Source: Dokdonia sinensis (lineage in GTDB: Bacteria > Bacteroidota > Bacteroidia > Flavobacteriales > Flavobacteriaceae). Taken from it: 64,000 nt of DNA. Both the position numbers and the translations under genes were made by a program. Every line of letters starts with the position of its first letter. Within the stretch, counting starts at the first letter, position 1. Positions 1,006 to 58,689 of the stretch are shown in pieces. The DNA lies in contig NZ_REFV01000001.1 of assembly GCF_003688895.1 (NCBI RefSeq), positions 165,503 through 229,502 on the forward strand, read 5' to 3'. The notes below the pieces were generated by a model. It did not search any database. It had not been told where the DNA came from and saw only the letters and a program-made list of their open reading frames with translations.

Positions 1006-1023
1006 ACGCTTTCGCGAAAGCGC
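1006..1023. repeat. Dispersed palindrome, intergenic copy
   Basis: Contains CGCTTTCGCGAAAGCG (core 1008-1021). It lies between the divergent tRNA-Pro and udk promoters. Confidence 0.95.
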
Positions 1024-1042
1024 AATCAATCCCCTATTTTTC

Positions 1043-1050
1043 TACCTTTG
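1043..1050 (+). promoter_or_regulatory. -7 promoter box of udk
   Basis: TACCTTTG matches TAnnTTTG. It ends 15 bases before the udk ATG at 1066, giving a very short 5' leader. The TTG inside this box could be taken for a start codon but is better explained as promoter. Confidence 0.6.
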
Positions 1051-1065
1051 TACAAATACTTTTTT

Positions 1066-1674
1066 ATGCTCATTATAGGAATAGGTGGTGGCACCGGTAG
1101 CGGTAAAACAACGGTTGTAGAACAGATAATCTCACATTTTCCAGATGGCGAGGTAGCGGTTATTTCGCAAGACTCCTATTACAAGGATTTATCACATCTT
1201 ACAAAAGAAGAGCGGACGAAGGTCAACTTTGACCACCCTAACGCAATAGATTTCCCGTTGCTTTGTGACCACTTGCGCGAGTTACGTGCGGGACGTTCTG
1301 TTTTACAACCAGTATATTCCTTTGTCGAGCATAATAGAACAAATGAAACTGTGCTCACCAGTCCCACACAAGTACTGGTTGTAGAGGGTATTCTCATCCT
1401 TACAGATGCCCAAATAAGAGAACTCTTTGACATTAAAGCCTTTGTCCACGCAGACAGTGATGAGCGTTTAATAAGACGCCTCAAAAGAGATATTGCAGAG
1501 CGTGGTCGCGACTTGCAAGAAGTATTAAATAGATACCAGACTACCCTTAAACCGATGCACCAGCAATTCATAGAGCCTACAAAGGAATTTGCAGATATTA
1601 TTATCCCAAATAACAAGTACAACACTGTTGCTGTAGACATAGTAAGAAGCATCATAAACGAGCGTTTATCATAG
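1066..1674 (+). CDS. udk: Uridine kinase
   Basis: Phosphorylates uridine and cytidine to UMP and CMP in cytoplasmic pyrimidine salvage. The protein is 202 residues, normal for Udk. It begins almost directly with the P-loop (GGGTGSGKTT, about residues 6-15), followed by the acceptor-site stretch QDSYYKDL, the NFDHPNAIDF region, the EGILIL Walker-B-like strand and the RRLKRDIAERGRD lid. I chose ATG 1066 rather than the in-frame TTG 18 bases upstream, because that TTG is part of a -7 box and family members start just before the P-loop. First gene of a rightward operon with the ftsB-like gene, mutA, a lipoprotein and mutB. Confidence 0.95.
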   Translation: MLIIGIGGGTGSGKTTVVEQIISHFPDGEVAVISQDSYYKDLSHLTKEERTKVNFDHPNAIDFPLLCDHLRELRAGRSVLQPVYSFVEHNRTNETVLTSPTQVLVVEGILILTDAQIRELFDIKAFVHADSDERLIRRLKRDIAERGRDLQEVLNRYQTTLKPMHQQFIEPTKEFADIIIPNNKYNTVAVDIVRSIINERLS

Positions 1675-1695
1675 GGAATTACTATCTTCGTCTAT

Positions 1696-2055: not shown

Positions 2056-3418
2056 TCTCTTTCAAGATTTTGATCCCGTTTCGGCAAAGGCGTTCAAGCA
2101 AAAAATTCAGTTTGACTTGAAAGGAGCCTCTTATAATGACACCTTGATCTGGCATACTAATGAGGGAATAGACGTTAAGCCTTTTTATCACGGAGATGAT
2201 ATAGATGAATCCCAGCTTACCACTCCTCAAACTCCTGAGCAATGGTACATAAGCGAGGCGATATTTATTCTCGACCCTGCCCAAAGCGCCGTCACGGCAA
2301 ATACAGCGATTGAAGCTGGCGCAGAAGCAATTTATTTCACTGCAAATGAGCCATTTGACATTGAGGTGCTCTATAATCATTTGTCCGAAAGAGAAATCCC
2401 GCTTTACTTTAATCTTCGGTTTCTAGATGAAGATTTTTGTGTGAGGTTTTACGCTTTCGCGAAAGCGTATAAAAACACCACCTTAAAACTAGACCTCATT
2501 CATCACCTTATAGAAGATGGAAACTGGTTCCACTCGATGGAACGAGACCATAAAATATTAAACACGATTCTTAACTCCGAAGGTCAAAAAAACATTACCA
2601 TAGATACCACATTCTACCAAAATGCTGGCGCTACAATGGTACAGCAACTGGCTTACGGTATTTCCCACCTTAACGAATACCTCAACCATATAGAGCAACA
2701 GAAAATAGAGTGCCCACACATCACTTTTGAGGTAGCCGTGGGGACAAATTATTTTTTTGAAATAGCAAAACTGCGTGCCTTAAGACAACTTACAGCCATA
2801 TTACTATCTGAATACGGTTTTTCTGAATCGACCAGAGTACATATAATTGCGCATCCTACTAGACGTAATAAAACGATTTACGATTATAACACGAATATGC
2901 TACGCACTACAACGGAGTGTATGAGCGCCATACTAGGAGGCGCAAATGTGGTGGTAAATCAGCCTTACGATGCCATTTATCATAAAACAAACAACTTTGG
3001 TCAGCGCATTTCCAGAAATCAACTCATTATCTTAAAAGAAGAAAGTTATTTTGATGCCGTGAGCAATCCAGCAGATGGAGCATATTATATCGAATCGATC
3101 ACATCACAACTCGCTCAAAAATCTCTTGACCTCTTTAAGGAAATTGAGCAAAAAGGTGGTTTTCTCAAGCAACTTAAAGAAGGAACGATACAACGTAAAA
3201 TAAAAGAAAGTGACGCTCGAGAGCAAGAGCAGTTTAATAATAAAGAGCTTATACTGCTAGGAACAAATAAACATCCCAATTTAACAGACAAGATGAAAGA
3301 TGAATTAGAGTTGTTCCCGTTTGTAAAAAGAAACCCTCGGAAAACCATCATCACTCCTATCATCCCAAGGAGACTGTCCGAAATTATCGAGCAAGAAAGA
3401 CTAAAAAATGAAGTGTAA
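2042..3418 (+). CDS. mutA: Methylmalonyl-CoA mutase small (beta) subunit
   Basis: Non-catalytic partner of MutB in the B12-dependent interconversion of succinyl-CoA and methylmalonyl-CoA (propionate metabolism). The 458 residues align in character with the TIM-barrel part of the large subunit (YNTNMLRTTTECMSAILGGA, DPADGAYYIES). It lacks a C-terminal cobalamin domain with DxHxxG, as expected for short Bacteroidetes small subunits. Its start overlaps the ftsB-like gene. A copy of the dispersed palindrome (core 2453-2466) is read in frame as AFAKA. A lipoprotein gene separates it from mutB. Confidence 0.93.
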   Translation: MTKSNLFQDFDPVSAKAFKQKIQFDLKGASYNDTLIWHTNEGIDVKPFYHGDDIDESQLTTPQTPEQWYISEAIFILDPAQSAVTANTAIEAGAEAIYFTANEPFDIEVLYNHLSEREIPLYFNLRFLDEDFCVRFYAFAKAYKNTTLKLDLIHHLIEDGNWFHSMERDHKILNTILNSEGQKNITIDTTFYQNAGATMVQQLAYGISHLNEYLNHIEQQKIECPHITFEVAVGTNYFFEIAKLRALRQLTAILLSEYGFSESTRVHIIAHPTRRNKTIYDYNTNMLRTTTECMSAILGGANVVVNQPYDAIYHKTNNFGQRISRNQLIILKEESYFDAVSNPADGAYYIESITSQLAQKSLDLFKEIEQKGGFLKQLKEGTIQRKIKESDAREQEQFNNKELILLGTNKHPNLTDKMKDELELFPFVKRNPRKTIITPIIPRRLSEIIEQERLKNEV

Positions 3419-4037: not shown

Positions 4038-6181
4038 TGGCAAGACGCAATGTGCAACATATTGATCTGAGTACGCTTTCGCGAAAGCAAAAAATAACTT
4101 CGTCACAAAAGTTAAAAACAACAAAAACCGCTGAGCAAATATCGCTCAAGAAGAGATATCGTAAAGATGATCTTGAAACAGTTGAGCATCTTGATTTTGT
4201 TGCAGGATTACCACCATATCTAAGGGGACCATACAGTACCATGTACGTGCGACGGCCCTGGACAATTCGTCAGTACGCAGGATTCTCCACTGCTCAGGAT
4301 AGCAATGATTTTTATCGTCGCAATCTTGCTGCAGGACAAAAAGGGCTCTCGGTAGCCTTCGACCTGGCTACACATCGCGGTTATGATAGCGATCACGAGC
4401 GGGTCGTTGGGGACGTAGGGAAAGCTGGAGTTGCCATAGACTCGGTTGAGGATATGAAAGTCCTTTTTGATCAGATTCCGCTGGATCAAATGTCGGTATC
4501 GATGACTATGAACGGAGCCGTGCTGCCCATAATGGCTTTTTACATTGTGGCTGCCGAAGAACAAGGAGTCTCTCTAGAAAAACTTTCAGGGACAATCCAG
4601 AACGACATTCTTAAGGAATTTATGGTCCGTAATACCTATATCTATCCTCCTACTCCATCTATGCGTATCATCTCGGATATTTTTGAATTTACGGCTGAGA
4701 AAATGCCTAAGTTCAACAGTATTTCCATATCAGGATATCATATGCAAGAAGCGGGTGCTACCTGCGACATCGAACTTGCATATACGCTAGCAGATGGTCT
4801 TGAGTATCTAAGGACAGGTATTGCTGCAGGAATGGATATCGATCACTTTGCTCCTAGATTATCTTTTTTCTGGGCGATTGGGATGAACCATTTTATGGAA
4901 GTGGCAAAGATGAGAGCAGCCAGAATGCTCTGGTCTAAAATTGTTTCCCAGTTCAACCCAAAGAATCAAAAATCACTGGCGCTCAGGACCCACTGCCAGA
5001 CCAGCGGATGGAGCCTTACAGAGCAAGACCCCTTTAACAATGTTGCCCGAACGTGTATCGAAGCCGCCGCTGCTGCTTTTGGAGGGACCCAGAGTTTACA
5101 TACAAACGCGCTAGATGAAGCCATAGCGCTTCCTACAGATTTTTCTGCACGTATTGCTCGTAATACTCAAATCTTCCTGCAAGAAGAAACTCATATAACT
5201 AAAACTGTCGATCCTTGGGCGGGAAGCTATTATGTAGAATCACTTACAAACGAAATAGCGCATAAAGCGTGGAAACTCATCGAGGAAGTAGAGGAACTGG
5301 GCGGTATGACAAAAGCTATAGAAGCTGGAATCCCTAAGCTTCGCATAGAGGAAGCCGCTGCACGTAAGCAAGCCCGTATCGATAGTGGACAAGATATCAT
5401 TGTAGGTGTAAACAAATACCGACTTACGGAGGAGGAACACCTAGATATCCTAGATATAGATAATACTAAAGTAAGGGAAGGTCAGCTCAAACAACTTGCA
5501 ACAATCAAAGCAAGTAGGAATACAGCTAAGGTCACGGGAACTTTAGAAAAAATAACCCAAGCGGCTCGTGCTAAAAGTGGAAATTTACTAGCTTTAGCCG
5601 TCGAGGCGGCTAGGGAAAGAGCAACTCTGGGTGAGATTTCAGATGCTCTAGAGGAAGTTTATGGACGTCATAAGGCGGTAATTCAATCATTTAGTGGAGT
5701 GTATAGCAAGGAAGTAAAAAAGGATCCCGCTTTCGCGAAAGCGCAACAACTCGCAGATCAGTTTGCAAAAATTGATGGAAGACGACCACGCATTATGGTT
5801 GCAAAAATGGGTCAAGACGGTCACGACCGTGGTGCAAAAGTAGTAGCAACGGGTTATGCAGATATTGGTTTTGACGTAGACATTGGTCCTTTATTTCAAA
5901 CGCCTAAAGAAGCTGCAAAACAGGCGATGGAAAATGATGTACACATTCTTGGAGTATCGTCACTTGCCGCAGGACATAAAACATTAGTACCACAAGTCAT
6001 AGAAGAACTCAAAGCATTAGGAAGAGAGGATATAATGGTCATCGTTGGAGGTGTAATACCTCAGCAAGATTATCAATTTTTGTTTGATGCTGGAGCTGCT
6101 GCAGTTTTTGGGCCGGGCACTAAAATTAGTGAGGCGGCCATTGCGCTACTTAAGCTAATGATAGGTTCGGAAGATATATAA
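4037..6181 (+). CDS. mutB: Methylmalonyl-CoA mutase large (alpha) subunit
   Basis: Catalytic, adenosylcobalamin-dependent subunit, 714 residues, the usual length. The N-terminal TIM barrel binds the CoA ester ([32 protein letters not shown]). The C-terminal B12 domain carries DGHDRG with D594, H596 and G599, where His is the lower cobalt ligand. Translation is coupled to the preceding lipoprotein gene by a TAATG overlap. Two copies of the dispersed palindrome lie inside the gene: core 4075-4088 near the N-terminus (read TLSRK) and core 5729-5742 in the linker before the B12 domain (read AFAKA). Both fall where the family is variable. Confidence 0.97.
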
Positions 6182-7177: not shown

Positions 7178-8773
7178 CTATTTTTTGATGATTTTAATGG
7201 TGCTTGAAAGATTTGTGCTCTCCAGTCTTGCTAGATAAATGCCCAATTTTAATTCCGAAATATCTACCCATTGATTATCATTTTTGATGAACTCACGATG
7301 TACTTCTTGACCTATTATATTAAATAATCGTAACGAAGCTTCATTCACTCCTTCTGGAAGTCCGACTTGAAAACGATCTGAAGTTGGGATGGGTTGTAGG
7401 GTGTACGCTTTCGCGAAAGCGGAGTCATCTACACTCAACAACGTTTCTAGCAACGCTCCGAAATCGGGGATACCATACCCAAACTGAGGTGTAGGATTGT
7501 CAAAGGTGCTACTCACCTCACGTATAAATTGCATAAGCTCCGCGTTTGTGAGATTAGGGTTTGCTTGCCAAATACTTGCCACGGCACCCGCCATAATAGG
7601 CGAACTAAAACTTGTGCCGCTACTCGTGGTGATTGTACCATTAGATCTTATAACTGCAGCACTCGCTCCCTTTGCCATAACATCTGGCTTTACTCGACCG
7701 TCTGAAGATGGGCCTATACTACTAAAACTGGCATAGTTCCCCTCACTATCTACTGCTCCTACAGTAAGAGCTCCTACGGCATCTGCTGGTGCCGAAATCA
7801 TTCCGCTACCCGAATTTCCAGCACTTGTTACGACCAACATCCCTTTTTCAAAAGCTATAGTTGTCCCTCTAGAGATAAAAGCGGTCTCCCCATCCATATC
7901 TTCATAGGTAAGATCATACGGATCAAAATCATAGTTTCTGTACCCTAGGGAGGTATTAATAATATCTACTCCTAAACTATCTGCTCGCTCTGCTGCTTCT
8001 ACCCAATTTGATTCTTCGACAGGGTTTTCACTTGCAACATCTTCTGTTCTAAAACAATAAATTGCTGCGTCTGGTCCTGTTCCTACAAACTGATTTTGGA
8101 CAAAACCTGCAATATTACTTACTACACGCGTACCGTGATCGCTACCTTGAAAAGCAAATACGTCTTCTGTTTTAGAAACAAAATCATAACCTCCCAAGAG
8201 CTTTCCATTATCACGTATTCTTGCAAATCCGTCTTGAGTGTCTACTCCCGAGAATCCAGAATCCATAATGGCGACAATCATTCCCTCACCAGTATAATCC
8301 TGAAGATGCACCTCATCTACAGAAAGCATCGTTACTTGATTTTCTGTTGTTCCGTATGTAAAGTCTACCCGCTGCTCTGGAGCTTCCTTTTGGAAATAAA
8401 AATTATCTGGATTCCTATTTCTCGACCTATCTGCATACTCAATACTGCTTACAAATGAAAGGTCAAGTAGGTTTTGGATATTTTCTAAACTTCCGCGTAC
8501 ATGCACACAATTAAACCATTTTGACTTAGCCAATACCGCTATACCATCTTGATTTTTAATCTCTGATATATAATCTTCGTTAACCGGCACATCACGCTCA
8601 TCTATAGGCGTGTTGTGCATGGCCTTTCGGTCTATGGCTTCTTGGGTAAGAATAGATATAGGGTTATCTATACTAGTCTGAACGTTTTCTTTGTCCGTAA
8701 AATATACCCAAGCATCTTGCTGAGCGTAGGTACTAGTTGTTACTAAGAAGAGTAAGAGTAGGATTTTTTTCAT
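7178..8773 (-). CDS. Secreted subtilisin-like serine protease with T9SS sorting domain
   Basis: Family S8 peptidase of 531 residues. Signal peptide about 1-17 (ends TYAQ), a propeptide region to about 150, then the catalytic domain with D171 (VAIMDSG), H213 (DHGTRV), oxyanion N320 (SAGNSGS) and S388 (SGTSFSSP), so the triad is intact. The last 75 residues (LQPIPTSDRFQV..., ending in TIKIIKK) are a type IX secretion C-terminal sorting domain, so the enzyme is probably exported to the cell surface or medium. A palindrome copy (core 7407-7420) lies in the linker before the sorting domain, read SAFAKAY. Its stop overlaps the following gene's GTG. Confidence 0.93.
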   Translation of the reverse strand: MKKILLLLFLVTTSTYAQQDAWVYFTDKENVQTSIDNPISILTQEAIDRKAMHNTPIDERDVPVNEDYISEIKNQDGIAVLAKSKWFNCVHVRGSLENIQNLLDLSFVSSIEYADRSRNRNPDNFYFQKEAPEQRVDFTYGTTENQVTMLSVDEVHLQDYTGEGMIVAIMDSGFSGVDTQDGFARIRDNGKLLGGYDFVSKTEDVFAFQGSDHGTRVVSNIAGFVQNQFVGTGPDAAIYCFRTEDVASENPVEESNWVEAAERADSLGVDIINTSLGYRNYDFDPYDLTYEDMDGETAFISRGTTIAFEKGMLVVTSAGNSGSGMISAPADAVGALTVGAVDSEGNYASFSSIGPSSDGRVKPDVMAKGASAAVIRSNGTITTSSGTSFSSPIMAGAVASIWQANPNLTNAELMQFIREVSSTFDNPTPQFGYGIPDFGALLETLLSVDDSAFAKAYTLQPIPTSDRFQVGLPEGVNEASLRLFNIIGQEVHREFIKNDNQWVDISELKLGIYLARLESTNLSSTIKIIKK

Positions 8774-10175: not shown

Positions 10176-10868
10176 CTAGTGGCGGATACCAATTTTATTT
10201 TGCGGAAATTTAACCTCTTTATCCAGTTTCCCATTTTTATAGTATTTCCAGGTGCCGTGCTTTTTATTGCTTTTGTAATTTCCCTCTCGTTCTAAGTTTC
10301 CCTCGCTATCATAGAGGGTTGCCCAACCCTCTAGCAAGCCATTCTTATAAGTGTAAGACTTAAGCAAAACACCGTTCTCATTGTAGTGTTCGTCTATCCC
10401 ATCTTCCTTTCCTTCGATAAAGTAATGTTTCTGGGCAATCTGGCCGTTTGGAAAATAGACTTTTCTCTCTCCATTAATATTGCCATTTACATACTCTTCT
10501 GTAGTCATAAGCGTGGTACCATCCTCCTGATAATATTTCCAAGTGCCTATTCTATTCCGTTTTTTCATCTGACCTTGAGAGATTTTTTTTCCGCTTTCGC
10601 GAAAGTAAACTACCTCCGCAAGATCACTCCCGTCTATGTAACTCATAGTGACCACAGGTTGCTTACCACTCGTCTCTGAATAAAATTTAAAAGTGCCTAC
10701 CTCTTTACCATGTTCAAATGTACCTTCATATCGCAACTGTTGCGTTCCATCAAAAAATTTACGCCAAGCTCCATGACGGTGGCCATCCTTATCATTTTTA
10801 TTATAATCTTGAGCTATGCATTGCCCTGTTAAGAGCAAAGCAATAGAGAATATTAATTTAAAAGCCAT
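10176..10868 (-). CDS. Secreted YwqK-type MORN-repeat protein
   Basis: Protein of 230 residues with a signal peptide (about 1-19, ends CIAQ) followed by about eight MORN-like units with the pattern G-x-W-K-x-Y/F-x-x-x-G (HGAWRKFF, IGTWKYYQEDG, EGWATLYDSEG, HGTWKYYKNG). Such proteins are often annotated 'toxin-antitoxin system YwqK family antitoxin', but a secreted MORN protein with no toxin next to it is unlikely to be an antitoxin, so that name should not be used to infer function. A degenerate palindrome copy (10592-10605) lies inside. Monocistronic; the mnmA promoter follows. Confidence 0.8.
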   Translation of the reverse strand: MAFKLIFSIALLLTGQCIAQDYNKNDKDGHRHGAWRKFFDGTQQLRYEGTFEHGKEVGTFKFYSETSGKQPVVTMSYIDGSDLAEVVYFRESGKKISQGQMKKRNRIGTWKYYQEDGTTLMTTEEYVNGNINGERKVYFPNGQIAQKHYFIEGKEDGIDEHYNENGVLLKSYTYKNGLLEGWATLYDSEGNLEREGNYKSNKKHGTWKYYKNGKLDKEVKFPQNKIGIRH

Positions 10869-17900: not shown

Positions 17901-19968
17901 CAAATGCCGGGTTTACGGAGTCCAACTTCACCTTTGTATTCATCACCAAATCCAAATTTTCATCCTTAAAATCTAGATCTATATCTCCTTTTCCGTTTTT
18001 GATATTTCCTCTCAATTTCAAAGCCGAAAAGTCATATCCAGCATATTCCAATTTCTCAAACTGAGAATCCAGCACGACATCCAGCGTGTTTACATTGCTT
18101 CCACTACCGCGCGCCATGGCGTTAAAGGTGAGGGTTCCTATTTTTTCGTTTTGGAGAATTTTCCCTAATTGTAATTCTTGCACCGCAATTTTGGTGTCAA
18201 AAGCGATGTCATTCTGGTTTTTAAATGTGCCATCTACTATCACAACACCTTCAGGAATGGTGAGCGTGGCCTTTGCTTTAAGGTCATCCATAGCACCTCT
18301 AACGTTACCCGCGAGACGCATCGTTGCGGGAAGTTTTATTCCCAGCGAATCTTCATTTACAAATTGTAAAAGGTCTTCTCTGGTGGTCGAGGCTGTTAAT
18401 GATGGTAAATATAACCCCAGATTTTCTACATCTGTCGGATTTTCAATCGTTCCGTTAAGGGCGATTTTTGTTTGTCCCCAAGAAGCGTTAGACGGGTCTA
18501 TTTGTAATTGCTGTAAGGTTCCTTGGAGCTTGAGATTTGTGTTTATACGCTTTCGCGAAAGCGTACTAAAATATTCATTCTTCCGTAGGTCTGGCTGAAA
18601 CTGAAATGCAGTCGTTAGATCTACCGAAGCTTCTGGAAGGTCAATTGCCACTCGCACAATTTCTGGTTTATTAATGAGCGCGTTAAATGATGGATAATCT
18701 AAGTTGATATCGCCCGAAATATAACTGCTGTTTACCCCTGCATACAACCCTCTAGCCGAAAGTTTATTCTTATCCCATTTAAAATCTGTTTCTAGACGGT
18801 TTACTTTAAAACCACTTCGGTCTGTAAAAGAAACTTCTTGTAGGTTTATAAGGACATTTTCTGGTTCGTAGTTGATGTCCTGTGCTTTCAGGTTTATTGC
18901 CGTGAGCTGGAGATTTTCTGGATTAAAAACTCCAGGGACGTTAGGCGTTGTGCCTATTTTAGAAGAAAAGGCTACGTTTTCAAATATAAACGAGTTTCCT
19001 TTTACCGCCAGCGGTGGCCACGGTATTAACTGCTCCTCGCCCGCTACTGGTGTTGTGTTTGTATTTTCTGTGGATATTCCTTCAAACGCCATAACAGCAT
19101 CTTTAAGAAAAAGGCTGTTTGCTTCATATCGCTGGTCAGAAAGTGTGATAGCCATTTCTGAACCCTCAATTTCTGGAAAGAATCCTTCGAAATCTATGTT
19201 GTCAACTTTTGAGGAAAAGTCAAGGTCAAAATTGGTAATATTTAAATCTCCCACTTCAAAATACGGGAGCGCACTTTCGGTTGTATCTGAAACCACGGTG
19301 GGCGGTAGTTGGGTGACTTTTACTTGGGTGTTACTTAAAGTAAGATCACCTGCTGTAAAACGCATATTCTCAAGGTCGAGTTTATCCATCTCAAGATTGA
19401 GCTTGCCTATTTTAAAAGAACTAACGATTTCGCCAGTGTAGTCGTTGAACTCGATGTCAAAGTTTGAAAAGTCCAATGTGCCTATTTCAATTTCGGGGTT
19501 TGTGGTTTGCTCTTTCGCGACAGCGGTAGTATCAGCTGTGGCAAAGGCATCCATTAAAAATTGATAATTGAATTGTTCTGAGATGGAGTCTTTCTCGATT
19601 TTGGCGACTAAACCGTCCCAAGTGGCGCTCTTTAAATGATATTTTGTTCCTTTTATGAGAGGCATTAACTCAACGGACGCCTCAAGCGAATTAGAATAAA
19701 TTAACGTATCTCCTGCGGTGTCTTCTAGGTATAAGCCCTCTATCTGTAGATTCCCATCAAATGTTAGAAATAGCCTTTCTATCTCAACCCTTGTATTTGT
19801 TTTGTTTGAAACATAAGAAGTTGCCTTGTTTACGATTATATTTTGTCCCCACTCGCTTCGTATGGCGAGTACTAAAAGAAGAAATAGCACTAAAAATACC
19901 AGCACTACTTTTCCCAATATGCGCAACCACTTATATGCTTTTTTCTTTTTTGTTTGGGGTTTGTTCAT
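14923..19968 (-). CDS. tamB: Translocation and assembly module protein TamB
   Basis: Very large protein (1681 residues) with a basic N-terminus and a single signal-anchor helix (about 14-33, VVLVFLVLFLLLVLAI). A long repetitive beta-rich (beta-taco) periplasmic body follows, typical of AsmA/TamB lipid-transport-like proteins. The DUF490/TamB C-terminal domain is roughly 1180-1640 (DIMTRKDDEV, GRYTVDDGHYEASLYG, TGVKLDFGLDSYTD). The last 30 residues are a Lys/Glu-rich charged tail. A palindrome copy (core 18549-18562) is read STLSRKRI inside the body. A minus-strand -7 box, TAGCTTTG, lies at 19991-19998. Forms an envelope-spanning pair with TamL. Confidence 0.93.
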   Translation of the reverse strand: MNKPQTKKKKAYKWLRILGKVVLVFLVLFLLLVLAIRSEWGQNIIVNKATSYVSNKTNTRVEIERLFLTFDGNLQIEGLYLEDTAGDTLIYSNSLEASVELMPLIKGTKYHLKSATWDGLVAKIEKDSISEQFNYQFLMDAFATADTTAVAKEQTTNPEIEIGTLDFSNFDIEFNDYTGEIVSSFKIGKLNLEMDKLDLENMRFTAGDLTLSNTQVKVTQLPPTVVSDTTESALPYFEVGDLNITNFDLDFSSKVDNIDFEGFFPEIEGSEMAITLSDQRYEANSLFLKDAVMAFEGISTENTNTTPVAGEEQLIPWPPLAVKGNSFIFENVAFSSKIGTTPNVPGVFNPENLQLTAINLKAQDINYEPENVLINLQEVSFTDRSGFKVNRLETDFKWDKNKLSARGLYAGVNSSYISGDINLDYPSFNALINKPEIVRVAIDLPEASVDLTTAFQFQPDLRKNEYFSTLSRKRINTNLKLQGTLQQLQIDPSNASWGQTKIALNGTIENPTDVENLGLYLPSLTASTTREDLLQFVNEDSLGIKLPATMRLAGNVRGAMDDLKAKATLTIPEGVVIVDGTFKNQNDIAFDTKIAVQELQLGKILQNEKIGTLTFNAMARGSGSNVNTLDVVLDSQFEKLEYAGYDFSALKLRGNIKNGKGDIDLDFKDENLDLVMNTKVKLDSVNPAFDVDLNLKGADLEKLGITQENIKAKFKLDATFIGNAERFNVESHITEGLAVYGNEPYYLGDITLDARIRQDSTDVQFKSQIINADLKSNVSPQALATALQRKFKSYVTDSTYMDTLVNPASMELKLYARQTTLLSEVLLPGLDRLDSISGNIQFDEGAGTLVADIEAPYIKYGSSIIDSVYVHLKGDEKNLVFESGLANLTAGPLAMQRTFLDGSVSDQTLFLDFNAYQGEERLAHIQSETRSENDTIVFHINPKDLIFNKKEWEIGASNKMRLAENHIRFEDFTLSRNAQRFEVSSSVAGRDKYHIGLLFENFKLSTLTSLLNPEEPLVNGLAQGSFIVEDPFMDAGIVADVTVNDFKAATVPLGTMTVKAAQNLSGKYDMAVAVKGDNVDVDLKGDYVASAEGAALNLLLDINKVKMKVVEGFLDESIAQTEGSLSGKIKIDGIPNAPDYKGTINFNNASLLVNAFNSTFKLPEEQIKVDNSGIYLNQFTIKDGADNSFIVDGGILTEDIANPKFNLTLKANDFQALNSTAEDYDFFYGKVAVTADLAITGDLNIPKVRGSMKVNEGSNFTMTVPESQLDVQEREGVVIFVNKENPDDIMTRKDDEVANATLTGYDVDVTARVDKNSTLKIIIDERSGDNFQVSGSGDFQAGLEPNGRTTLSGRYTVDDGHYEASLYGLVKRRFRIAPGSTITWQGDPLDASMDVRAIYELETSASGLMAVRTAGESTGITNKYQQKLNFLVYLNVDGELLSPDISFALDMPEDEQGQLGGEVYGQVQQLNNQEDELNKQVFSLLVLNRFFPGSGSDGSAGGPASIARDNVNNVLAGQLNNFSDKLIGGTGVKLDFGLDSYTDYQGDAPQSRTQLDISASKKLLNDRLIVQVGSAVDLEGSSQASGEGAPVIGNVSLEYLLTENGRYRLKGFRRNEFESVIDGQLIVTGIALIFNREFNKFSELFRKPIVEEVEKTEAQKEKEEQKEKEKKADDWEKDGDN
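18546..18565. repeat. Dispersed palindrome inside tamB
   Basis: Perfect 20-bp copy (TACGCTTTCG plus its reverse complement). It is translated in frame as TLSRKR in the middle of the TamB body. Confidence 0.95.
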
Positions 19969-23920: not shown

Positions 23921-24030
23921 TCGAGATTATTTGATATTTCCGTTTGGAAACGCTTTATTTTATTCCCGCTTTCGCGAAAGTTTACTCCTTTTTACTATCA
24001 TCTACTGACTAAGGACTACCGACTAATCAC

Positions 24031-29855: not shown

Positions 29856-29875
29856 TTACGCTTTCGCGAAAGCGT
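29856..29875. repeat. Dispersed palindrome between GMC and small-subunit genes
   Basis: Near-complete copy (core 29860-29873) in a 218-bp gap within the presumed two-gene unit. Confidence 0.95.
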
Positions 29876-39357: not shown

Positions 39358-40710
39358 CTACTTTTTTGCAGTGCGTTTTGCGTGTAAAGGTTGTGGCCTT
39401 TCGATTGCTACCAGTGGTTCTGCATATAAATCAAAATCTTCGGCCTCAGTGACTTTTACCATTGCATAGTCTCCCGTTTTTAGGTAAAATTTTGTCGCAT
39501 CGACAAGTACCTCGTTGTCTACGTCTGGAGAGTCAAACTCGGTACGACCTATAAAGAAATTGCCTTCCTTACGGTCTACAACGATTTTAAATTCTTGACC
39601 TATCTTCTGTTGGTTAAGCTCCCAGGAAATTTGGCTTTGGATTTCCATAATCTGGTTTGCTCGATCCATTTTCATCTCTTCTGGGACATCATCTTCCAGA
39701 TTAAAAGCGTGAGTGTTCTCCTCGTGAGAATATGTAAAACAACCTAAACGTTCAAAACGCTGGTCTTTTACCCACTGCTTCAACGTTTGGAAATCTTCTT
39801 CGGTTTCTCCAGGATACCCTACGATAAGTGTTGTGCGTATGGTCATCTCTGGTACGCTTTCGCGAAAGCGGTCTAACAGAGCATTTGTCTTTGCCATAGT
39901 AGTACCCCGGCGCATCGATTTTAGGATACTGTCAGAAATATGTTGTAAAGGGATATCAATGTAGTTACAAACTTTAGGCTCGCGTTTCATCACGTCCAGC
40001 ACTTCCATCGGGAAGCCTGTAGGAAAGGCATAATGCAATCGTATCCACTCGATTCCCTCTACTTTTACAAGGTTTTCAAGGAGTTCTGCAAGGTTGCGCT
40101 TTTTATATAAATCGAGACCGTAATAGGTAAGGTCTTGTGCGATCAATATCAATTCTGAAACTCCGTTTGCAGCTAGTTTCTTTGCTTCTGTCACAAGATG
40201 CTCAATAGGTTTTGACTTGTGTCCACCACGCATAAGGGGTATGGCGCAGAATGAACACGGGCGATCACAGCCTTCGGCTATTTTTAGGTACGCATAATTT
40301 TTTGGGGTTGTCGTCACCCGTTCTCCTATGAGCTCGTGCTTATAATCTGCACCTAGTGCTTTTAATAATCCTGGCAATTCTGTGGTTCCAAAGTACTGAT
40401 CTACATCAGGAATTTCTTTTTGAAGGTCCGGTTTGTAACGCTCAGAGAGGCATCCTGTTACAAAAACTTTATCCACATCTCCCTGCTCTTTTTGCCTTAC
40501 GTATTCCAGAATGGTGTTTACAGATTCCTCTTTTGCATTGTCAATGAAACCGCAGGTATTTATCACGACAATATTACCCTCTTGCTCGTGTACCACATCC
40601 ATCTCATTTGCTTTGAGCTGTCCCATAAGGACCTCGCTGTCATAAACATTTTTAGAACACCCGAGGGTGACTACGTTTATCTTGTTCTTTTTCAATGATT
40701 TGGTACGCAT
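39358..40710 (-). CDS. rimO: Ribosomal protein S12 methylthiotransferase
   Basis: Radical-SAM methylthiotransferase that modifies an aspartate of ribosomal protein S12. The 450 residues have three domains. The N-terminal UPF0004 domain holds LGCSKN, NTCGFI and TGCLSERY, whose cysteines bind an extra Fe-S cluster. The radical SAM core has the CDRPCSFC motif. The C-terminal TRAM domain starts about 385 (GQEFKIVVDRKEGNFFIGRTEFDSPDVD), where the acidic DSPDVD motif favours RimO over MiaB. A palindrome copy (core 39856-39869) is read DRFRESVP, the only copy in that frame among the perfect ones. Confidence 0.95.
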   Translation of the reverse strand: MRTKSLKKNKINVVTLGCSKNVYDSEVLMGQLKANEMDVVHEQEGNIVVINTCGFIDNAKEESVNTILEYVRQKEQGDVDKVFVTGCLSERYKPDLQKEIPDVDQYFGTTELPGLLKALGADYKHELIGERVTTTPKNYAYLKIAEGCDRPCSFCAIPLMRGGHKSKPIEHLVTEAKKLAANGVSELILIAQDLTYYGLDLYKKRNLAELLENLVKVEGIEWIRLHYAFPTGFPMEVLDVMKREPKVCNYIDIPLQHISDSILKSMRRGTTMAKTNALLDRFRESVPEMTIRTTLIVGYPGETEEDFQTLKQWVKDQRFERLGCFTYSHEENTHAFNLEDDVPEEMKMDRANQIMEIQSQISWELNQQKIGQEFKIVVDRKEGNFFIGRTEFDSPDVDNEVLVDATKFYLKTGDYAMVKVTEAEDFDLYAEPLVAIERPQPLHAKRTAKK

Positions 40711-42721: not shown

Positions 42722-42743
42722 TTACGCTTTCGCGAAAGCGTAA
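42722..42743. repeat. Full-length dispersed palindrome before aroQ
   Basis: Perfect 22-bp palindrome, TTACGCTTTCG plus its reverse complement, in the divergent aroQ/xerD spacer; longest intact copy in the window. Confidence 0.97.
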
Positions 42744-43767: not shown

Positions 43768-46700
43768 TTTGATAATGTATCCTGTCTCATTATTTTTTTA
43801 TTGGGTGTTCTACGATATCCAGAAGTTTTCATAATATTTTGATCTTTAATATTTACTTCATTATCATCCACTAAGTAGTCCAGGATACGCTGTATTGCAA
43901 ATTGCACATCTGGATGATGCTTAACCATTGCTTCCTGATACCGCACCGCTGGCGTACTTAACAATCTAGCAAGTGGCGGCTCCACAACACCCCATTTTTT
44001 CTTGTTGTATTTTGAGTAGGCTTTCAAGGCCATATCGATACTGTCATTGTGGGTTTTTATCTTTTCCAGTAAGTCTAGTGGGTCTGCGACCTCTCCTCTA
44101 AACTGTGCTTCCACATCTGAAAGATGAATTTTATGTGGCATAAAAACTTCCTCTAGGATATATTTTTTGTTTCTAATTTTTGCAGATACATATCTGGGAA
44201 ACTTATCTATAGAAATAACTGTTTCGAGTATCGCTGAAATCTGCCCAACACCAGGGTCTTTTGCTTCTCTAGTGACTCCCCATTCTTTAATCTTCTTTGC
44301 GGTGTAGTAATTTTTAGAATTTATGATGTTTATAAACACAGGGTTCATTTCTTTTACCGCAGCATTTTCTTTAGCGAGAAATGTAAAATGATCGTGAAGT
44401 TCTAATACACTTAATAGGCCTGAGTTATCAAAATATCCTCCATCTAGATAGTGTCCTTTAGAGGGAACTTCGGCCGTTGGACTAAAGAGCGGAAATCTAT
44501 TTGTAGTAGATAATGCTCCAAAATATGTAAGGGATTTATCTCTGTTTACTCCTTCAAAATCAAGAATATTATCTGCTCCAGAAAATATGCTGTCTGGGAC
44601 TTTTAATGAGCTAGCTACGCCTTGTTTCCCTAGTGTAGAGGTAGTATTTGTTATGAGTATAGGAAAACTAGCTTTTTCGTACGCATACATATCCTGCCAG
44701 TAATCACGATAGGTGACATTATTAAATAATCCTTTCTTCATACCAACCATACGAGAATGCTCGCGCATAGAATAGTAACTTCTGTCTCTACCCTTAAATA
44801 TGTTAAATGGAATGGGTTCTCTAAAAAAATCTGCTCCTAGCCAGAGGGCGAGTTCGTAAGAGAGCACATTAGACTGACCGATCTCCTCTATGGCTTGTCT
44901 CATTTTTACGGGATCACCTTGAGCGTTGTATCTTAAAGCAGAATAGTTGCCTATTCCTACGGCACCACCAGAGACTCCAGACATCGCAACGGTTTTGTGC
45001 AGGAAACGCTTTCGCGAAAGCGAATCTAACTCAAATAATAAAAGGTTGTTCCACAGATTTGCCTTAAGACCACCTCCATAAGAGCCTATGTAAAAATAAT
45101 TGTTGCCTGTGCTCTGCCTATCTGAAGATTGCAATCTTTTGAGAAAAGTTATTCTGGACATTGTATCCTTCTTTTCTATAGGGACTAAAGTGAGTTCGTG
45201 CAGATCAGAATCCTCTTTTGAAGTAATGGACACTACAATTAGAATTACTAAAGCAATGATTGGGATAAGTAATGGACGTGTAAAATGAACTTTTAATATG
45301 TCCTTATTGCGGTTGTAGTATAGGACGTGTTTAAATACTATGAATACAGCTGCATAAATAAGAATGATGTATAAAAGGATAACATTAATAGGGTTAATAT
45401 AAGCGGCAATATCAAAGCTAATATTTACGAGCAGCAATACAAGTAGTGAAAAAAAACCACTTGCACTCATAATTTTTATAAAAGCCACATTGTTACTTAA
45501 ATTCCCAATTAAAGTGCGTAACCAGCCATCTTTTCTCTTTTTCACTCGGTGTTTTTCAAAGAGGTAGGCGGTGGCTGGATTAAACATAGACGCTTGACGC
45601 CTGCACAATTCGTTAGTAAAAAATACATATTTTAAATAAGTCCGACATATTTTAAAATACATATAGAGATAGAGATGTGCAGCTAGAGTAATGAATGCAA
45701 AAACTAAGGTAATACCTGACCATCCTACGAAGTGAGCGAGTAATGAGGTAATCAGACTCAGCCCTATAGAAATTAGTATAAAGTAAGGGAAGAACGTGCA
45801 ATAGTCCTGTATTTCCTTAAGAACATCTTTTACGGGTCGCGGCGGTTGGTCACCTGTCTTATGATTTCCAAGTGCTTCTGCAATGGAGATTTTCCAACCA
45901 TTATACATCTCACCGTGAAAATGATAAATTACCAGGCTTCCTATTAAAATAAATATGGTCAGTCCAATTACATTAATATCCTTTTCAAAATACTGCGCAG
46001 CCACTCTGAAAAAAATATTAAATACTGCGATATATAATAGTATTCCTAAGCTCCTACGCCAGCGTTTTATTGTTTCGTCATTGTATAACCGCTTCCCTTC
46101 TGGGGTACCCTGACTTGTATCATAATAAATGAATCCCCAGCCAAAAAAGTTAAAACTTCCTGCCTCCTCTGTAGTAAGCTCATCTATCGTTTGCCTAGAC
46201 AGTACACGTTCTTGCTCCAAGTCTTTGTCTGGGTTCTCTTTTTCCTTTAAGGCTTTGCGACCTGTTTCCATAATAGAATCACAAGTTGCATCACCTCTAG
46301 GTTTCCAGTAAGCCATCTTTAAACGCCATACATTATTGCTTCCGTACCACCAAAGCTCTGCGTAGGTAGGATAATGGGCTAATATTATAGCAAGAAAAAT
46401 AAGTAAGAAAAAAAAGCCAAATGTATTCCAGAAGCTATCTAGCATAGATACAACAAGAGTCCCACCTTGAGGCATTAGTGTAAGTAGTCCGTAGATAAAC
46501 GCAATAAAGATTAAACTTACTATGGATGTGATGATAAAGCGCGCTACCGTACGATACTTTTTGAGAACTAAGTTTTTGAATACATAAATGATTATGAAGA
46601 AACTACAGAAGAAATAGACTCCAATCTTTACGAAATATAATATCTCTAATCCATCTCCCTCAAAAATCATATAACGAAGGACATTTTCAATAAATTCTAG

Positions 46701-53034: not shown

Positions 53035-53055
53035 TTACGCTTTCGCGAAAGCGTA
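53035..53055. repeat. Dispersed palindrome between menC and the UPF0173 gene
   Basis: Near-full copy (core 53039-53052), 10 bases upstream of the menC ATG and just after the UPF0173 gene's stop. Confidence 0.95.
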
Positions 53056-53841: not shown

Positions 53842-53866
53842 CTTAATAATGATTTACTTATAATTC

Positions 53867-55867: not shown

Positions 55868-55910
55868 AAAATTTTAGTTTAAATTATTATCCAGTAGGAA
55901 AAATAAGAAT

Positions 55911-55945: not shown

Positions 55946-55990
55946 CGATAAAATGCACTTATAGAACGCTAAAAGGTTAGCGACTCAAAC

Positions 55991-56914
55991 CTAACCTATT
56001 ACGAGTTGAGGCAAAATGAGACATAAGACAAAGAAGACAGAAGCTATAGTAAAAGTCACTAAAGCCACTTTCTTTAATTCAGGGTCGTAAGCCTTAGGTT
56101 GCTCAACCAGAATCACCTTACGAATGTGGATACCTAAAACTAAAAAAGGCAGGATCGTTAAGAAATATACTTCAGGTACTTTTGAAACAAAAAGAAATAC
56201 ATTCCAAGCAACAAAAGCAACCATAATAACAACTATATGGTACCTTTTAGACCCACTTTTTCCCATCAAAACCGCAAGTGTTTTCTTTCCAACTTTCTCA
56301 TCTTCTACCCGATCTCTCATGTTATTAAGATGTAACACTGCGGTTGCAAGTAAACCAATGGTGGCAGCTGGTAAAACTTTTACAATATCTAGTTGCCTCG
56401 TGAACAGAAAATAACTACCCATAACAGCCACTAAGCCAAAAAAAATAAAAACGAAAAAATCACCCAATCCCCGATAACCATAAGCACTTTTACCCACCGT
56501 ATATTTTACCGCGGCAATAATTGCAGTAATGCCCAAGAAGAGAAAAAGTAAAGACAACATTAAATCATCTGCACCAAATGCGGTATAGATTAATGCAATA
56601 ACAGCCATCATCGTGAGTACGGTAATCACTATCATTCCTCTTATAAGATCTGATGTAGTCAGTAGGCCACTCTGCATAGCTCTTGCCGGACCAACACGAT
56701 GTTCATTATCTGTCCCTTTTACTCCGTCGCCATAATCATTTGCAAAGTTTGATAAGACCTGGAATCCCAGGGTTGAGAGCAGGGCAAGCACAAAAATTTC
56801 CCATTTAAAAAGTCCTTCCATCTGGGCTAAACCCGAACCTACGAGAATACCAGATATAGATAGCGGCAAAGTGCGTAAGCGAGCAGCAAGTAACCAAGAG
56901 GAAATGGATGGCAT
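55991..56914 (-). CDS. menA: 1,4-Dihydroxy-2-naphthoate polyprenyltransferase
   Basis: UbiA-superfamily membrane prenyltransferase of 307 residues that attaches the isoprenoid tail to DHNA. Eight or nine membrane helices. The prenyl-diphosphate site is NFANDYGDGVKGTDNEHRVGP (about 58-78), with the second Asp-rich loop LNNMRDRVEDEKVGKKTLAV. A -7 box TATTTTTG lies at 56932-56939. Separated from menC by the P-domain gene, so it has its own promoter. Confidence 0.95.
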   Translation of the reverse strand: MPSISSWLLAARLRTLPLSISGILVGSGLAQMEGLFKWEIFVLALLSTLGFQVLSNFANDYGDGVKGTDNEHRVGPARAMQSGLLTTSDLIRGMIVITVLTMMAVIALIYTAFGADDLMLSLLFLFLGITAIIAAVKYTVGKSAYGYRGLGDFFVFIFFGLVAVMGSYFLFTRQLDIVKVLPAATIGLLATAVLHLNNMRDRVEDEKVGKKTLAVLMGKSGSKRYHIVVIMVAFVAWNVFLFVSKVPEVYFLTILPFLVLGIHIRKVILVEQPKAYDPELKKVALVTFTIASVFFVLCLILPQLVIG

Positions 56915-56931
56915 AGAAGTAAATTGTGCAT

Positions 56932-56939
56932 CAAAAATA
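56932..56939 (-). promoter_or_regulatory. -7 promoter box of menA
   Basis: Minus-strand TATTTTTG matches TAnnTTTG, 17 bases before the ATG. An inverted repeat TTTCGCTT-A-AAGCGAAA (56947-56963) lies just upstream, in the -33 zone. Confidence 0.55.
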
Positions 56940-57018
56940 CATTTTCTTTCGCTTAAAGCGAAAACACAAGAGTTCTCAATTCAATTTACTAGCTTCGTAA
57001 CAACAAAACTTAGCATTT

Positions 57019-58689
57019 ATGAAAACCTTCTTACCCCTCTCCATCTTATTATTAGCAATTACGTTTGTAGGTTGCAAGTCTGATAACTCTCCGAAGAACA
57101 ATTCTGAACTTGCAGAAACAGAAGTAAAAACCCCGTTTGTCTGGGAAGGAGCAAATGTATATTTCCTGATGACAGATCGTTTCAGTAATGGAGACAGCTC
57201 AAACGATACCAACTTTGACCGTACAAAAGAAACAGCAGTCTTAAGAGGTTTTATGGGTGGTGATCTTAAAGGAATCACTCAAAAAATAAATGAGGGATAT
57301 TTTACAGATTTAGGCGTTAATGCCATCTGGTTTACACCCGTCGTAGAGCAAATACACGGTGGTGTAGATGAAGGTACGGGGCTTACATACGGATTCCACG
57401 GATACTGGACTAAGGACTGGACCGCACTAGACCCAAATTTTGGCACGATGGAAGATTTACAAGAGGTTGTAACTTCCGCTCACAAGAATAACATTCGTAT
57501 TGTGATGGATGTCGTTCTCAATCATACAGGGCCGGTTACAGAACAAGATCCGTTCTGGGGATCAGACTGGGCAAGAGAAGACCCTAATTGTGCTTTTACA
57601 ACTTATGAAAACACAATTAAATGTAGTCTAGTAGAAAACCTCCCAGATATCCTCACCGAAAGCGAAGAAGAAGTTCAACTCCCAGAACACCTCATCGCTA
57701 AGTGGAAAAAAGAAGGCCGCTACCAGCAAGAAATAGAAGAACTAGAAAACTACTTCACAAGTAACAATCTTAAAAAAACACCCCGTAATTATATTATAAA
57801 GTGGCTTACCGATTACGTGAGAGAACTTGGAATAGATGCCTTTAGAGTAGATACTACAAAGCACGTAGAGGAAGGAGCTTGGGATGTACTGCGTGAGCAA
57901 GCAGAAATAGCCTTTAGTACGTTTAAAAAAGAAAATCCTGAAAAAACGATGGATGACACACCATTTTTTATGCTTGGAGAAGTCTATAATTATATGGCAA
58001 GCAATGGTCGTGATTTTAACTTAGGTGACAAGAAAGTAGATTACTTTGCACACGGTTTTGACAATCTTATAAATTTTGAATTTAAATACGACGCGCTACA
58101 AGACTATGAGACCTTGTTTTCTAAGTACGATAGCATTCAGCACATCTCACATAAAGGAAAAAGCATTATGAATTATGCTACTTCTCACGATGACGGACAA
58201 CCTTTTGACAAAGACCGCACAAAACCACTAGAAACAGCAACCAAGCTGCTCCTCACACCAGGACTATCACAAATTTATTACGGGGATGAAAGCGCACGTG
58301 ACCTCACGATTGAAGGTACTCAAGGCGACGCTACCCTAAGAAGTTTTATGAATTGGGAACAGCAATCAGAACAAGAGACTAAAAAAATATTAAATCATTG
58401 GCAAAAACTGGGGTACTTTAGAGGGTCACATCCCGCAATAGGCGCCGGAAAGCACAAAATGTTAAGTCAAGCTCCATATATCTTTTCTAGAACTTTTGAG
58501 AATAATGATTTTAAAGACGTTGTGATTGTTGGTCTAGATTTACCACCTGGAAAGAAGGAGATTTATGTAGGTGACGCTTTCGCGAAAGCGGAAACCCTCA
58601 CAGACACTTATTCAGGGCAAGAAGTAGCTATTACTGACGGCAAAGTAACGGTAGACTCGCCCTATAATATTGTGCTCTTAGAAGAATAA
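57019..58689 (+). CDS. GH13 alpha-amylase family lipoprotein
   Basis: Protein of 556 residues with a lipoprotein signal ending in TFVGC (about residue 19). The (beta/alpha)8 barrel carries the four GH13 regions: DVVLNHT, FRVDTTKHV with nucleophile D278, LGEVYNY with acid/base E321, and SHDDG with H390 and D391. Acts on alpha-glucans (amylase or neopullulanase type) in the periplasm or at the surface. A palindrome copy (core 58576-58589) is read DAFAKAE in the C-terminal beta domain. Converges on the FMN reductase with one base between the stops. Confidence 0.92.
   Translation: MKTFLPLSILLLAITFVGCKSDNSPKNNSELAETEVKTPFVWEGANVYFLMTDRFSNGDSSNDTNFDRTKETAVLRGFMGGDLKGITQKINEGYFTDLGVNAIWFTPVVEQIHGGVDEGTGLTYGFHGYWTKDWTALDPNFGTMEDLQEVVTSAHKNNIRIVMDVVLNHTGPVTEQDPFWGSDWAREDPNCAFTTYENTIKCSLVENLPDILTESEEEVQLPEHLIAKWKKEGRYQQEIEELENYFTSNNLKKTPRNYIIKWLTDYVRELGIDAFRVDTTKHVEEGAWDVLREQAEIAFSTFKKENPEKTMDDTPFFMLGEVYNYMASNGRDFNLGDKKVDYFAHGFDNLINFEFKYDALQDYETLFSKYDSIQHISHKGKSIMNYATSHDDGQPFDKDRTKPLETATKLLLTPGLSQIYYGDESARDLTIEGTQGDATLRSFMNWEQQSEQETKKILNHWQKLGYFRGSHPAIGAGKHKMLSQAPYIFSRTFENNDFKDVVIVGLDLPPGKKEIYVGDAFAKAETLTDTYSGQEVAITDGKVTVDSPYNIVLLEE

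Follow-up and report, generated by a model that had tools for sequence, protein, structure and literature searches.

An evenly spaced palindrome in Dokdonia sinensis and related Flavobacteriaceae as a possible self-DNA address mark

Known Chi sites are short and oriented. The Rickettsia palindromic elements are insertions of ~100 bp that place palindromes inside reading frames, and parS/Noc sites are palindromes with TTTC and GAAA arms that occur in tens of copies. As described in parts of PMC1939737, known DNA uptake sequences, such as the DUS/USS of Neisseriaceae and Pasteurellaceae, are not palindromes; they are present in many copies, stand in reading frames, are in excess in non-coding DNA and are evenly spaced. 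HIP1 (GCGATCGC) of cyanobacteria is a highly iterated palindrome, lying in and between genes, whose deviations favour the first and last letters (from parts of PMC4390886).

The palindrome analyzed here was found in a 64-kb contig stretch of Dokdonia sinensis, referred to as the window. Its perfect 14-bp core is GCTTTCGCGAAAGC, and whole palindromes in the window are 12-22 bp long. Like HIP1 it is an iterated palindrome that favours deviation at the outer letters, but it is neither GCGATCGC nor an extension of it; it is longer, occurs about once per 4 kb and is evenly spaced. It shares over-representation with conservation, in-frame copies, even spacing and a non-coding excess with DUS/USS, which, in contrast to this 14-bp palindrome, are shorter oriented words. 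The exact strings of 12, 14 and 16 letters had no match in the open-access papers searched, and no recognizable description of the palindrome was present in the open-access literature searched. The explanation that we put first, tentatively and with slightly less than even confidence, is that the palindrome marks self DNA throughout the genome, as an address for a putative protein reader. By analogy, the best reading is that such a mark would work like an uptake sequence.

Number, placement and spacing of the copies

The window contained 17 copies of CTTTCGCGAAAG, 15 of GCTTTCGCGAAAGC, and 14 of CGCTTTCGCGAAAGCG, spanning positions 1009 to 58588. The recount agreed in number and range with the first-pass annotation, which had reported 15 perfect 14-bp cores. 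As also claimed there, 11 of the 15 14-mers were located inside listed ORFs (four between genes); for the 12-mers, the corresponding numbers were 12 of 17 and five. The named host genes, i.e. those for methylmalonyl-CoA mutase subunits, TamB, BshC, RimO, a glycosyltransferase, and an alpha-amylase, were confirmed where tested. The individual copies were as follows.

1007..1022, unstranded: 16-bp palindrome, intergenic, between tRNA-Pro (863-938, minus strand) and the ORF at 1048
2450..2469, unstranded: 20-bp palindrome in a methylmalonyl-CoA mutase subunit (458 aa), AFAKA frame
4075..4088, unstranded: 14-bp palindrome near the MutB start, LSRK frame, in a stretch variable among homologues
5728..5743, unstranded: 16-bp palindrome in MutB, AFAKA frame
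7406..7421, unstranded: 16-bp palindrome in a subtilase with Por-type sorting domain, AFAKA frame
10594..10605, unstranded: 12-bp core (imperfect copy) in a MORN-repeat protein, FRES frame
18546..18565, unstranded: 20-bp palindrome in TamB, LSRK frame
23969..23980, unstranded: 12-bp core (imperfect copy), intergenic
25214..25229, unstranded: 16-bp palindrome in a family 2 glycosyltransferase, AFAKA frame
29858..29875, unstranded: 18-bp palindrome, intergenic
35116..35131, unstranded: 16-bp palindrome in BshC, LSRK frame
38908..38927, unstranded: 20-bp palindrome in a 415-aa protein without Pfam or NCBIfam match, LSRK frame
39855..39870, unstranded: 16-bp palindrome in RimO, FRES frame
42722..42743, unstranded: 22-bp palindrome, intergenic, no terminator called
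45007..45022, unstranded: 16-bp palindrome in a 1085-aa protein without NCBIfam match, LSRK frame
53036..53055, unstranded: 20-bp palindrome, intergenic, no terminator called
58575..58590, unstranded: 16-bp palindrome in alpha-amylase, AFAKA frame

The genome as a whole carried 857 GCTTTCGCGAAAGC cores in 3.65 Mb, about one per 4 kb, whereas a reversed control pattern had no copy genome-wide. A dinucleotide model, computed on 1 Mb of the congener G006, gave an expectation of 0.0026 copies per Mb, or ~0.0002 per 64 kb as the first-pass annotation had stated; against the 857 copies, ~0.01 were expected under this model. Chance was thus ruled out as the origin of the copies, the expectation being far under one, and the genome total together with this low expectation supported the earlier suggestion of a genome-wide role at a density of about one per 4 kb. 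The range was narrow among the sampled genomes: all 17 other congeners searched carried 369-905 core copies, and high copy number was seen in three genera of Flavobacteriaceae.

Intergenic sites made up 159 of 364, although only ~9% of bases are intergenic; the other 205 were coding. Convergent gene pairs flanked 24 of the intergenic copies. The gaps between sites were far more even than random, with a coefficient of variation (CV) of 0.49-0.65 in five samples, and 9 of 203 gaps were shorter than 0.3 of the mean compared with 52.6 expected. Site counts in 50 20-kb samples of G006 were likewise under-dispersed (P 0.002). In a control, E. coli Chi sites were spaced as at random (CV 1.00, 51 gaps). 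The even spacing, the intergenic excess and the constraint on the letters described below resemble features of an uptake signal, one of the roles suggested in the first-pass annotation.

Constraint, flank signature and copies in phages

The core is under strong constraint. Between two species 94% identical, it diverged at 2 of 848 positions (0.24%) compared with 4.7-5.5% in the flanks, and between two species 87% identical the values were 6.0% and 14-15%. For pairs 77-82% identical, 260 of 321 aligned site comparisons were perfect, a count in which comparisons overlap and to which 111 further, unalignable comparisons do not contribute. One-mismatch variants were few (42 vs 219 perfect copies in 1 Mb), and in 30 of these 42 the mismatch was in one of the two outermost letters of an arm.

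On each side, the core is bordered by ~25 bp of C-poor/G-poor flank. On the 5' side C amounted to 6-8% compared with ~19%, and the composition was T-rich before the core and A-rich after it. This signature was present in all coding frames and between genes. A flank of this kind on each side suggests a symmetric reader that would bind the duplex. Divergence in the flanks was not reduced despite their biased composition; therefore, recognition of the flanks would be weak or the bias mutational. A 3-base rhythm of T in the flanks is at least partly due to the coding frame, and for this reason nothing was built on it. A longer hairpin formed from the flanks was rejected, as symmetric pairing at distances 11-30 did not exceed that of shuffled sequences at 19 of 20 distances; the exception was distance 23 (z 3.3, coding set), and at 11-13 pairing was below the shuffles.

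Conserved copies were also carried by some phages and by a metal-resistance island, and islands held copies at syntenic places. Eight of 41 viral stretches were set aside as likely chance matches (G+C 48% or more, one copy each). The 33 phage-type loci of lower G+C, with 30 distinct sites, displayed the flank signature (C 9.5%). Among related phages the sites were conserved, core divergence being 3.4% compared with 15-35% around the core, and they were evenly spaced (CV 0.63, 28 gaps, 10 records, P 0.004). Neither of two relatives that infect other hosts carried a copy, as counted in all of Peternella_1 and in 25.6 of the 28.8 kb of phi39:1. A search of 22 carrier genomes for two phage marker proteins, run without positive control, found neither, and three of seven viral records tested had no structural gene. 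A 14-mer scan of IMG/VR returned mostly single matches among the matches listed. For 21 sites in additional loci of 30-48% G+C, flank C was 0.16-0.19 in 12 (three of them in multi-copy records), 0.22-0.28 in four and 0.03-0.12 in five. By these values, real and chance copies cannot be cleanly told apart from the flank C of one site alone.

Alternative roles and origins

A lineage-specific nucleoid protein or clamp could dock at each palindrome and organize a few kilobases, regular sites then serving compaction, supercoil control or replication-linked order. Such a site for chromosome architecture or segregation is unlikely but a serious contender. It fits the dimer that a palindrome suggests, the even spacing and the strong constraint, and also the outcome of the check for ori-ter bias that the first-pass annotation had proposed, which amounted to a slight excess towards the skew-defined origin (Spearman -0.29, P 0.04). 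However, chromosome order does not require the conserved, evenly spaced copies in phages or the syntenic copies in islands. ParB gave a single match in 23 of 24 genomes, with a second, weak match in one non-carrier, and one column of the ParB alignment separated carriers from non-carriers; we take this column to lie outside the HTH. Docking of a ParB/Noc-like protein was rejected, since each of the 12 carriers tested had one ParB, nearly the same as in non-carriers. The parS/Noc sites share the arms, but the copies here number hundreds and the centre of parS/Noc sites is two bases shorter. An architectural role would equally explain spacing and constraint, and this was counted against the address mark.

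It is improbable that the palindrome is a classical DNA uptake sequence like those of Neisseria and Haemophilus, with a type IV pilus machine for competence as its reader and molecular drive as the sole cause of its spread. Abundance, even spacing, in-frame copies and non-coding excess match what parts of PMC1939737 report, but the uptake sequences of that account are not palindromes. In addition, the T4P/T2SS ATPase family PF00437 exceeded the Pfam cut-off in 4 of 14 carriers tested and was under the cut-off or absent in 10 (7 of 10 g1, 2 of 3 g11 and the one g210 genome tested), among them the single-contig genomes G006, G008, G009, G016, and G230; weaker matches below the cut-off occurred in 25 of 26 genomes. 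The site was abundant in carriers without a match over the cut-off, and T4P uptake was rejected on these grounds.

A functionless mutational or repair drive, like the methylation-dependent mismatch-repair model for HIP1 (parts of PMC4390886), would act on phages and islands as well as on chromosomes and would agree with sites arising by substitution and with the outer-position mismatches, which that source reports for HIP1 too. It gives no reason, however, for the missing short gaps, and near-misses are few beside the perfect copies; we regard it as quite improbable.

Poorer still are the prospects of a palindromic, bidirectional Chi-like site that would stop the host helicase-nuclease and load RecA on the C-poor strand 5' of the core. 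The density is near that of E. coli Chi in the stretches sampled (one per ~4.7 kb), the 5' flank is C-poor on both strands and phages would profit. Known Chi sites are oriented, whereas this core is a perfect palindrome without orientation, and its even spacing differs from the random spacing of E. coli Chi. RecBCD-Chi was rejected on this spacing and on the absence of the RecC family PF04257 from all 26 genomes tested, carriers and non-carriers.

The first-pass annotation had also proposed a very successful small element that adds short loops to proteins. An inserted mobile palindrome, comparable to the Rickettsia elements or REP, is highly improbable and is largely refuted as the usual origin by the alignments at empty sites. 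Such an element would suit the copies inside genes, which are open in the reading frames used. In 40 comparisons at 21 empty sites, the core was free of gaps in 15, and a gap of 1-12 bases was needed in the core alignment in 25. Net length over the core ±30 was nevertheless unchanged in 23 of 30 coding comparisons. A net change of at least 12 bases was found at 2 of the 21 sites (G006 27458 and 78818, both badly aligned), which were 19-27 bases shorter in the region of the core, enough to accommodate an insertion. The other 19 sites have no length change fitting an inserted unit, as a Rickettsia-like element would leave, so that most copies did not originate by insertion; the spacing is also too even. 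In the cases that could be judged, the unit mostly replaces existing codons rather than adding a loop.

The MutB site at 5730 arose in place. It is common to Dokdonia L031, G003, G006, and G008 and to three g11 genomes, at the same place and in the same codons, and none of 80 loci had a gap. Three outgroups have S/TFAKA at this position in other codons, and no palindrome was seen in the outgroups shown. The first-pass annotation had held that the same residues in distant genera would make the copies ordinary coding sequence. Since MutB shares S/TFAKA without a gap, the first half of this proposition partly holds there; the second does not follow, as AFAKA peptides in the G006 sample were encoded exactly by the palindromic codons in 68 of 78 cases (0.36 expected) and AFAKA was absent from 78 outgroup loci that together encode 469,201 aa.

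A transcription terminator or RNA hairpin is scarcely credible and was rejected by geometry, terminator scan and folding: the palindrome can fold and 24 copies lie between convergent genes, but the T-rich-before, A-rich-after order is the reverse of an intrinsic terminator, a scan of 40000-58000 called none of the three palindromes there, three intergenic copies folded with z 0.21, -1.78, and -0.73, and 205 of 364 copies are coding.

A putative reader of self DNA

For the address mark, the following mechanism is proposed. A symmetric, probably dimeric protein would recognize the 14-bp duplex core with help from the strand-asymmetric flanks (~25 bp to either side). A site, once occupied, might serve a few kilobases around it. 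DNA so marked would be better taken up, recombined, established or spared than unmarked DNA. A site in reach would be an advantage, and site-bearing alleles, resident islands and temperate phages would therefore be favoured. Point substitution would be the main source of new sites, at places that are already similar in sequence and where the protein tolerates AFAKA, LSRK, or FRES. The benefit would saturate near an existing site, which would produce the even spacing. Recognition outside the cell (uptake) and inside it (establishment, protection) are about level. The comparisons of the T4P ATPase, RecC and ParB families among the genomes tested revealed no reader. Also counted against the address mark were the pilus ATPase below cut-off in most carriers tested, the non-palindromic form of known uptake sequences, the outcomes of the phage marker and structural-gene searches, the unreduced divergence of the flanks and the two empty sites with a length change. 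It is possible, though we hold it with reserve, that a new system of self/non-self DNA recognition exists in Flavobacteriaceae without a type IV pilus requirement. In such a system a putative dimeric reader would favour duplex DNA marked at intervals of ~4 kb, and the same marks would for this reason have evolved on chromosomes, in temperate phages and in a metal-resistance island.

The presence of a letter-perfect 14-bp word at hundreds of evenly distributed places and in phages implies that nearly every few kilobases of DNA in these cells is probably acted on by a sequence-specific reader. Vector design for these strains could draw on the mark, which could also help in assigning phages and islands to hosts, and it offers a simple test case for the existence of highly iterated palindromes such as HIP1. 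The reader, once found, would reveal one of two things, an uptake signal of Bacteroidota that works independently of a pilus or a mark of self DNA inside the cell. It would also account for the filtering of gene flow, phage success and island transfer in this group of marine bacteria.

Genomic distribution and spacing of the palindrome

A recount over the window gave 17 copies of the core CTTTCGCGAAAG, including 15 of GCTTTCGCGAAAGC and 14 of CGCTTTCGCGAAAGCG, in agreement with the fifteen perfect 14-bp cores reported in the first-pass annotation. The high density held genome-wide, in line with the genome-wide role suggested there: the 14-mer occurred 857 times in the 3,647,482 bases of the window's genome, where a reversed control pattern had 0 copies, and 369–905 times in all 17 other genomes of the genus searched. 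Among 397 sampled genomes of the family, 48 contained the 16-mer. Only six of them, from the Flavobacteriaceae genera g1 (the window's own), g11, and g210, had more than 100 copies; the remaining 42 had 1–13 each. In a class-level sample of 395 genomes, the window's own genome alone was palindrome-rich, and six more had one or two copies. A Dokdonia record (L031), whose mutB was closest to that of the g1 genome G006 (79.6%; eleven compared), contained five cores in 22 kb. Locus L260 (G116:C3:62001-82000) also had five cores in 20 kb, close to genes for an MksE-type condensin and a Fic-domain protein; its genus is otherwise poor in the palindrome (12–13 16-mers per genome), and the locus is possibly an imported defence island. 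The exact 14-, 16-, and 12-letter strings had no match in the open-access literature searched, and topic searches of the same scope returned no recognisable description. Among named palindromes, HIP1 (PMC4390886) is the nearest.

The window also contained the following further features:
27934, imperfect copy sharing CGCTTTCGCGAAAA
32217, imperfect copy sharing CGCTTTCGCGAAAA
60551, imperfect copy sharing CGCTTTCGCGAAAA
1–208, perfect 81-bp tandem repeat of 2.6 copies, including CCCGCCACAAGCGGGA and truncated by the window edge

The palindrome was spaced far more regularly than random. The coefficient of variation (CV) of the gaps was 0.654 for the first 100 sites of G000 and 0.557, 0.500, 0.586, and 0.494 for four 200-kb stretches, which represent two pairs of relatives; in each of the five samples it was lower than in all 20,000 exponential simulations. 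In contrast, a CV of 1.00 (51 gaps) was obtained for the yardstick, Chi sites across 250 kb of E. coli K-12. Gaps shorter than 0.3 of the mean numbered 9 of 203 (G000, G016, and G006 pooled) against 52.6 expected. In fifty 20-kb samples of G006, site counts ranged from 1 to 7 with a dispersion of 0.52 (lower-tail P 0.002); away from the skew minimum, density dropped slightly, from 4.9 sites per 20 kb to 3.9 (P 0.04).

Constraint on the core and its origin

Between the congeners G016 and G003 (94% identity), the central 16 bp differed at 2 of 848 positions (0.24%), compared with 4.7–5.5% at positions 11–100 from the centre; between G006 and G008 (87%), core divergence was 6.0% against 14–15% around. 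In between-pair comparisons (77–82% identity), 260 of 321 aligned, partly overlapping site comparisons were perfect, 26 had one or two mismatches, 13 had at least three without a gap, and 22 had gaps; a further 111 sites without alignment lie outside the 321. One-mismatch variants were few (42 against 219 perfect copies in 1 Mb), and 30 of them carried the change in one of the two outermost positions of an arm. In G006, the most frequent such variant (14/42; GTTTTCGCGAAAGC on the opposite strand) is also the form of the imperfect copy at window 27934. In a 1-Mb sample of G006, 68 of 78 AFAKA peptides were spelled by the palindrome, with 0.36 expected from codon usage, and AFAKA was absent from 78 outgroup loci (469,201 residues).

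A small inserted element, with clean insertions relative to kin, had been considered in the first-pass annotation. This proposal was not upheld when syntenic 200-kb stretches of the four congeners were aligned. The 16 bp were kept at 51/53 and 51/55 aligned sites for G016/G003, with single substitutions as the only changes, and at 35/50 and 35/52 for G006/G008, where differences were substitutions only in 12/15 and 16/17. For example, GCTTTCGCGAAAGCG at G008 74148 corresponds to GCTTTTGCAAAGGCA in G006, and both encode identical residues in the AFAKA frame. Empty sites, defined by at least three mismatches or any gap in the core, yielded 40 comparisons at 21 sites: 15 were gap-free, and 25 needed a gap of 1–12 bases. 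Over the core ±30, 23 of 30 coding comparisons showed no net change in length. Only two of the 21 sites lacked 19–27 bases, G006 27458, called as coding, and G006 78818, called as intergenic; local identity at both was 49–54%. Thus, small indels are common in diverged stretches and unit-sized insertion is rare, and the palindrome does not usually arise by insertion. The MutB site at window 5730 occurred at the same place and in the same codons in L031, G003, G006, G008, and three g11 genomes. All eight loci shown without the site were equal in length (three encode SFAKA or TFAKA through different codons, five had other residues), and none of 80 loci had a gap there. Two other sites, one at MutB residue 13 and one in the small mutase subunit, fall in variable, gappy stretches and are uninformative on insertion either way.

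Copies in phages and a metal-resistance island

The 16-mer was found in 41 IMG/VR stretches, eight of which (G+C at least 48%, single copy) were excluded as likely chance; the other 33 represent 22 records with 1–7 14-mers each. Terminase, portal, capsid, or tape-measure genes were present in four of seven such records tested, and none was found in L118, L123, or L135 among the proteins tried. Record L116 encoded a tyrosine integrase. For L131, the closest cultured relative was Winogradskyella phage Peternella_1, with 54.5% identity in the terminase and with transposase genes and a Mu-like gene in its annotation; neither this phage nor 25.6 kb of Cellulophaga phage phi39:1 contained the core or its 10-mer. 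At orthologous viral sites, the core diverged by 3.4% against 15–35% around, and 56 of 78 comparisons, many overlapping, were perfect (19 with one or two mismatches, three worse). Ten viral records without closest kin held 38 sites in 284 kb, a density biased upwards because records were chosen for having a site; the sites were evenly spaced, with a gap CV of 0.63 (28 gaps, P 0.004), or 0.60 after adding two related records. Two phage marker proteins had no match in 22 carrier genomes in a search without positive control.

In other genera, where copies are few, several recurred at identical spacings (933, 2446, and 3460 bp). Ten stretches from nine such Flavobacteriaceae genomes (L192–L201) shared segments 67–98% identical, and the palindromes were kept at syntenic places in this related island. 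By Pfam, L192 encodes a Fur-type regulator, two E1-E2 ATPases (one with heavy-metal domains), an AcrB-type pump, an outer-membrane efflux protein, a multicopper oxidase, and an ArsP-type permease, a predicted metal-resistance cluster, probably for copper. One palindrome lies close to where the outer-membrane channel gene begins and encodes SAFAKAQ, which looks like a signal peptide.

Proposed recognition of the site and its possible role

Intergenic sites made up 159 of 364 distinct carrier sites versus about 9% of bases, where intergenic means outside reading frames of at least 90 residues, so that smaller genes are missed. Intergenic copies were placed between tandem (73), divergent (25), or convergent (24) genes. 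Coding copies used the AFAKA (115), LSRK (61), and FRES (29) frames. In the ParB of one g11 genome (G433, L285), the linker residues DTLSRKRN match the LSRK-frame peptide. The consensus extends as TACGCTTTCGCGAAAGCGTA. Outside this consensus, as far as about ±26, the strand that enters the core in the 5' to 3' direction was T-rich and C-poor (6–8% C versus about 19%), and the leaving strand was G-poor (6–10% G), in every coding frame and at intergenic sites. Symmetric flank pairing beyond ±10 did not exceed shuffles, except at one distance in the coding set. This flank bias without symmetric pairing fits a symmetric protein on duplex DNA better than a hairpin.

The main rival to a self-DNA mark is a nucleoid role of the palindrome. 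ParB did not track palindrome carriage in the genomes compared. A RecBCD-Chi role is unlikely given the random spacing of E. coli Chi and the lack of the RecC family (PF04257) in 26 of 26 genomes. An intrinsic terminator was rejected, since T precedes and A follows the core, opposite to the order in a terminator; a scan of window 40000–58000 called none of the three palindromes there.

Uptake sequences are the nearest working model. PMC1939737 cites a significantly even spacing for them and reports copies inside reading frames together with a non-coding excess; it also states that they are not palindromes and are less evenly spaced than expected of compaction sites. A type IV pilus/type II secretion ATPase exceeded the cut-off in only four of 14 carriers tested; across 26 genomes, a full-length T2SSE/PilB-type ATPase did so only in G004, G013, G017, G281, and G035 and is thus patchily distributed in two of the carrier genera.

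A self-DNA address mark best unites the constraint on an exact duplex palindrome with saturation over a few kilobases and with the copies in phages and islands. We infer a reader protein and a benefit of the site: DNA with a site in reach would fare better in these cells, and the benefit would saturate within a few kb.
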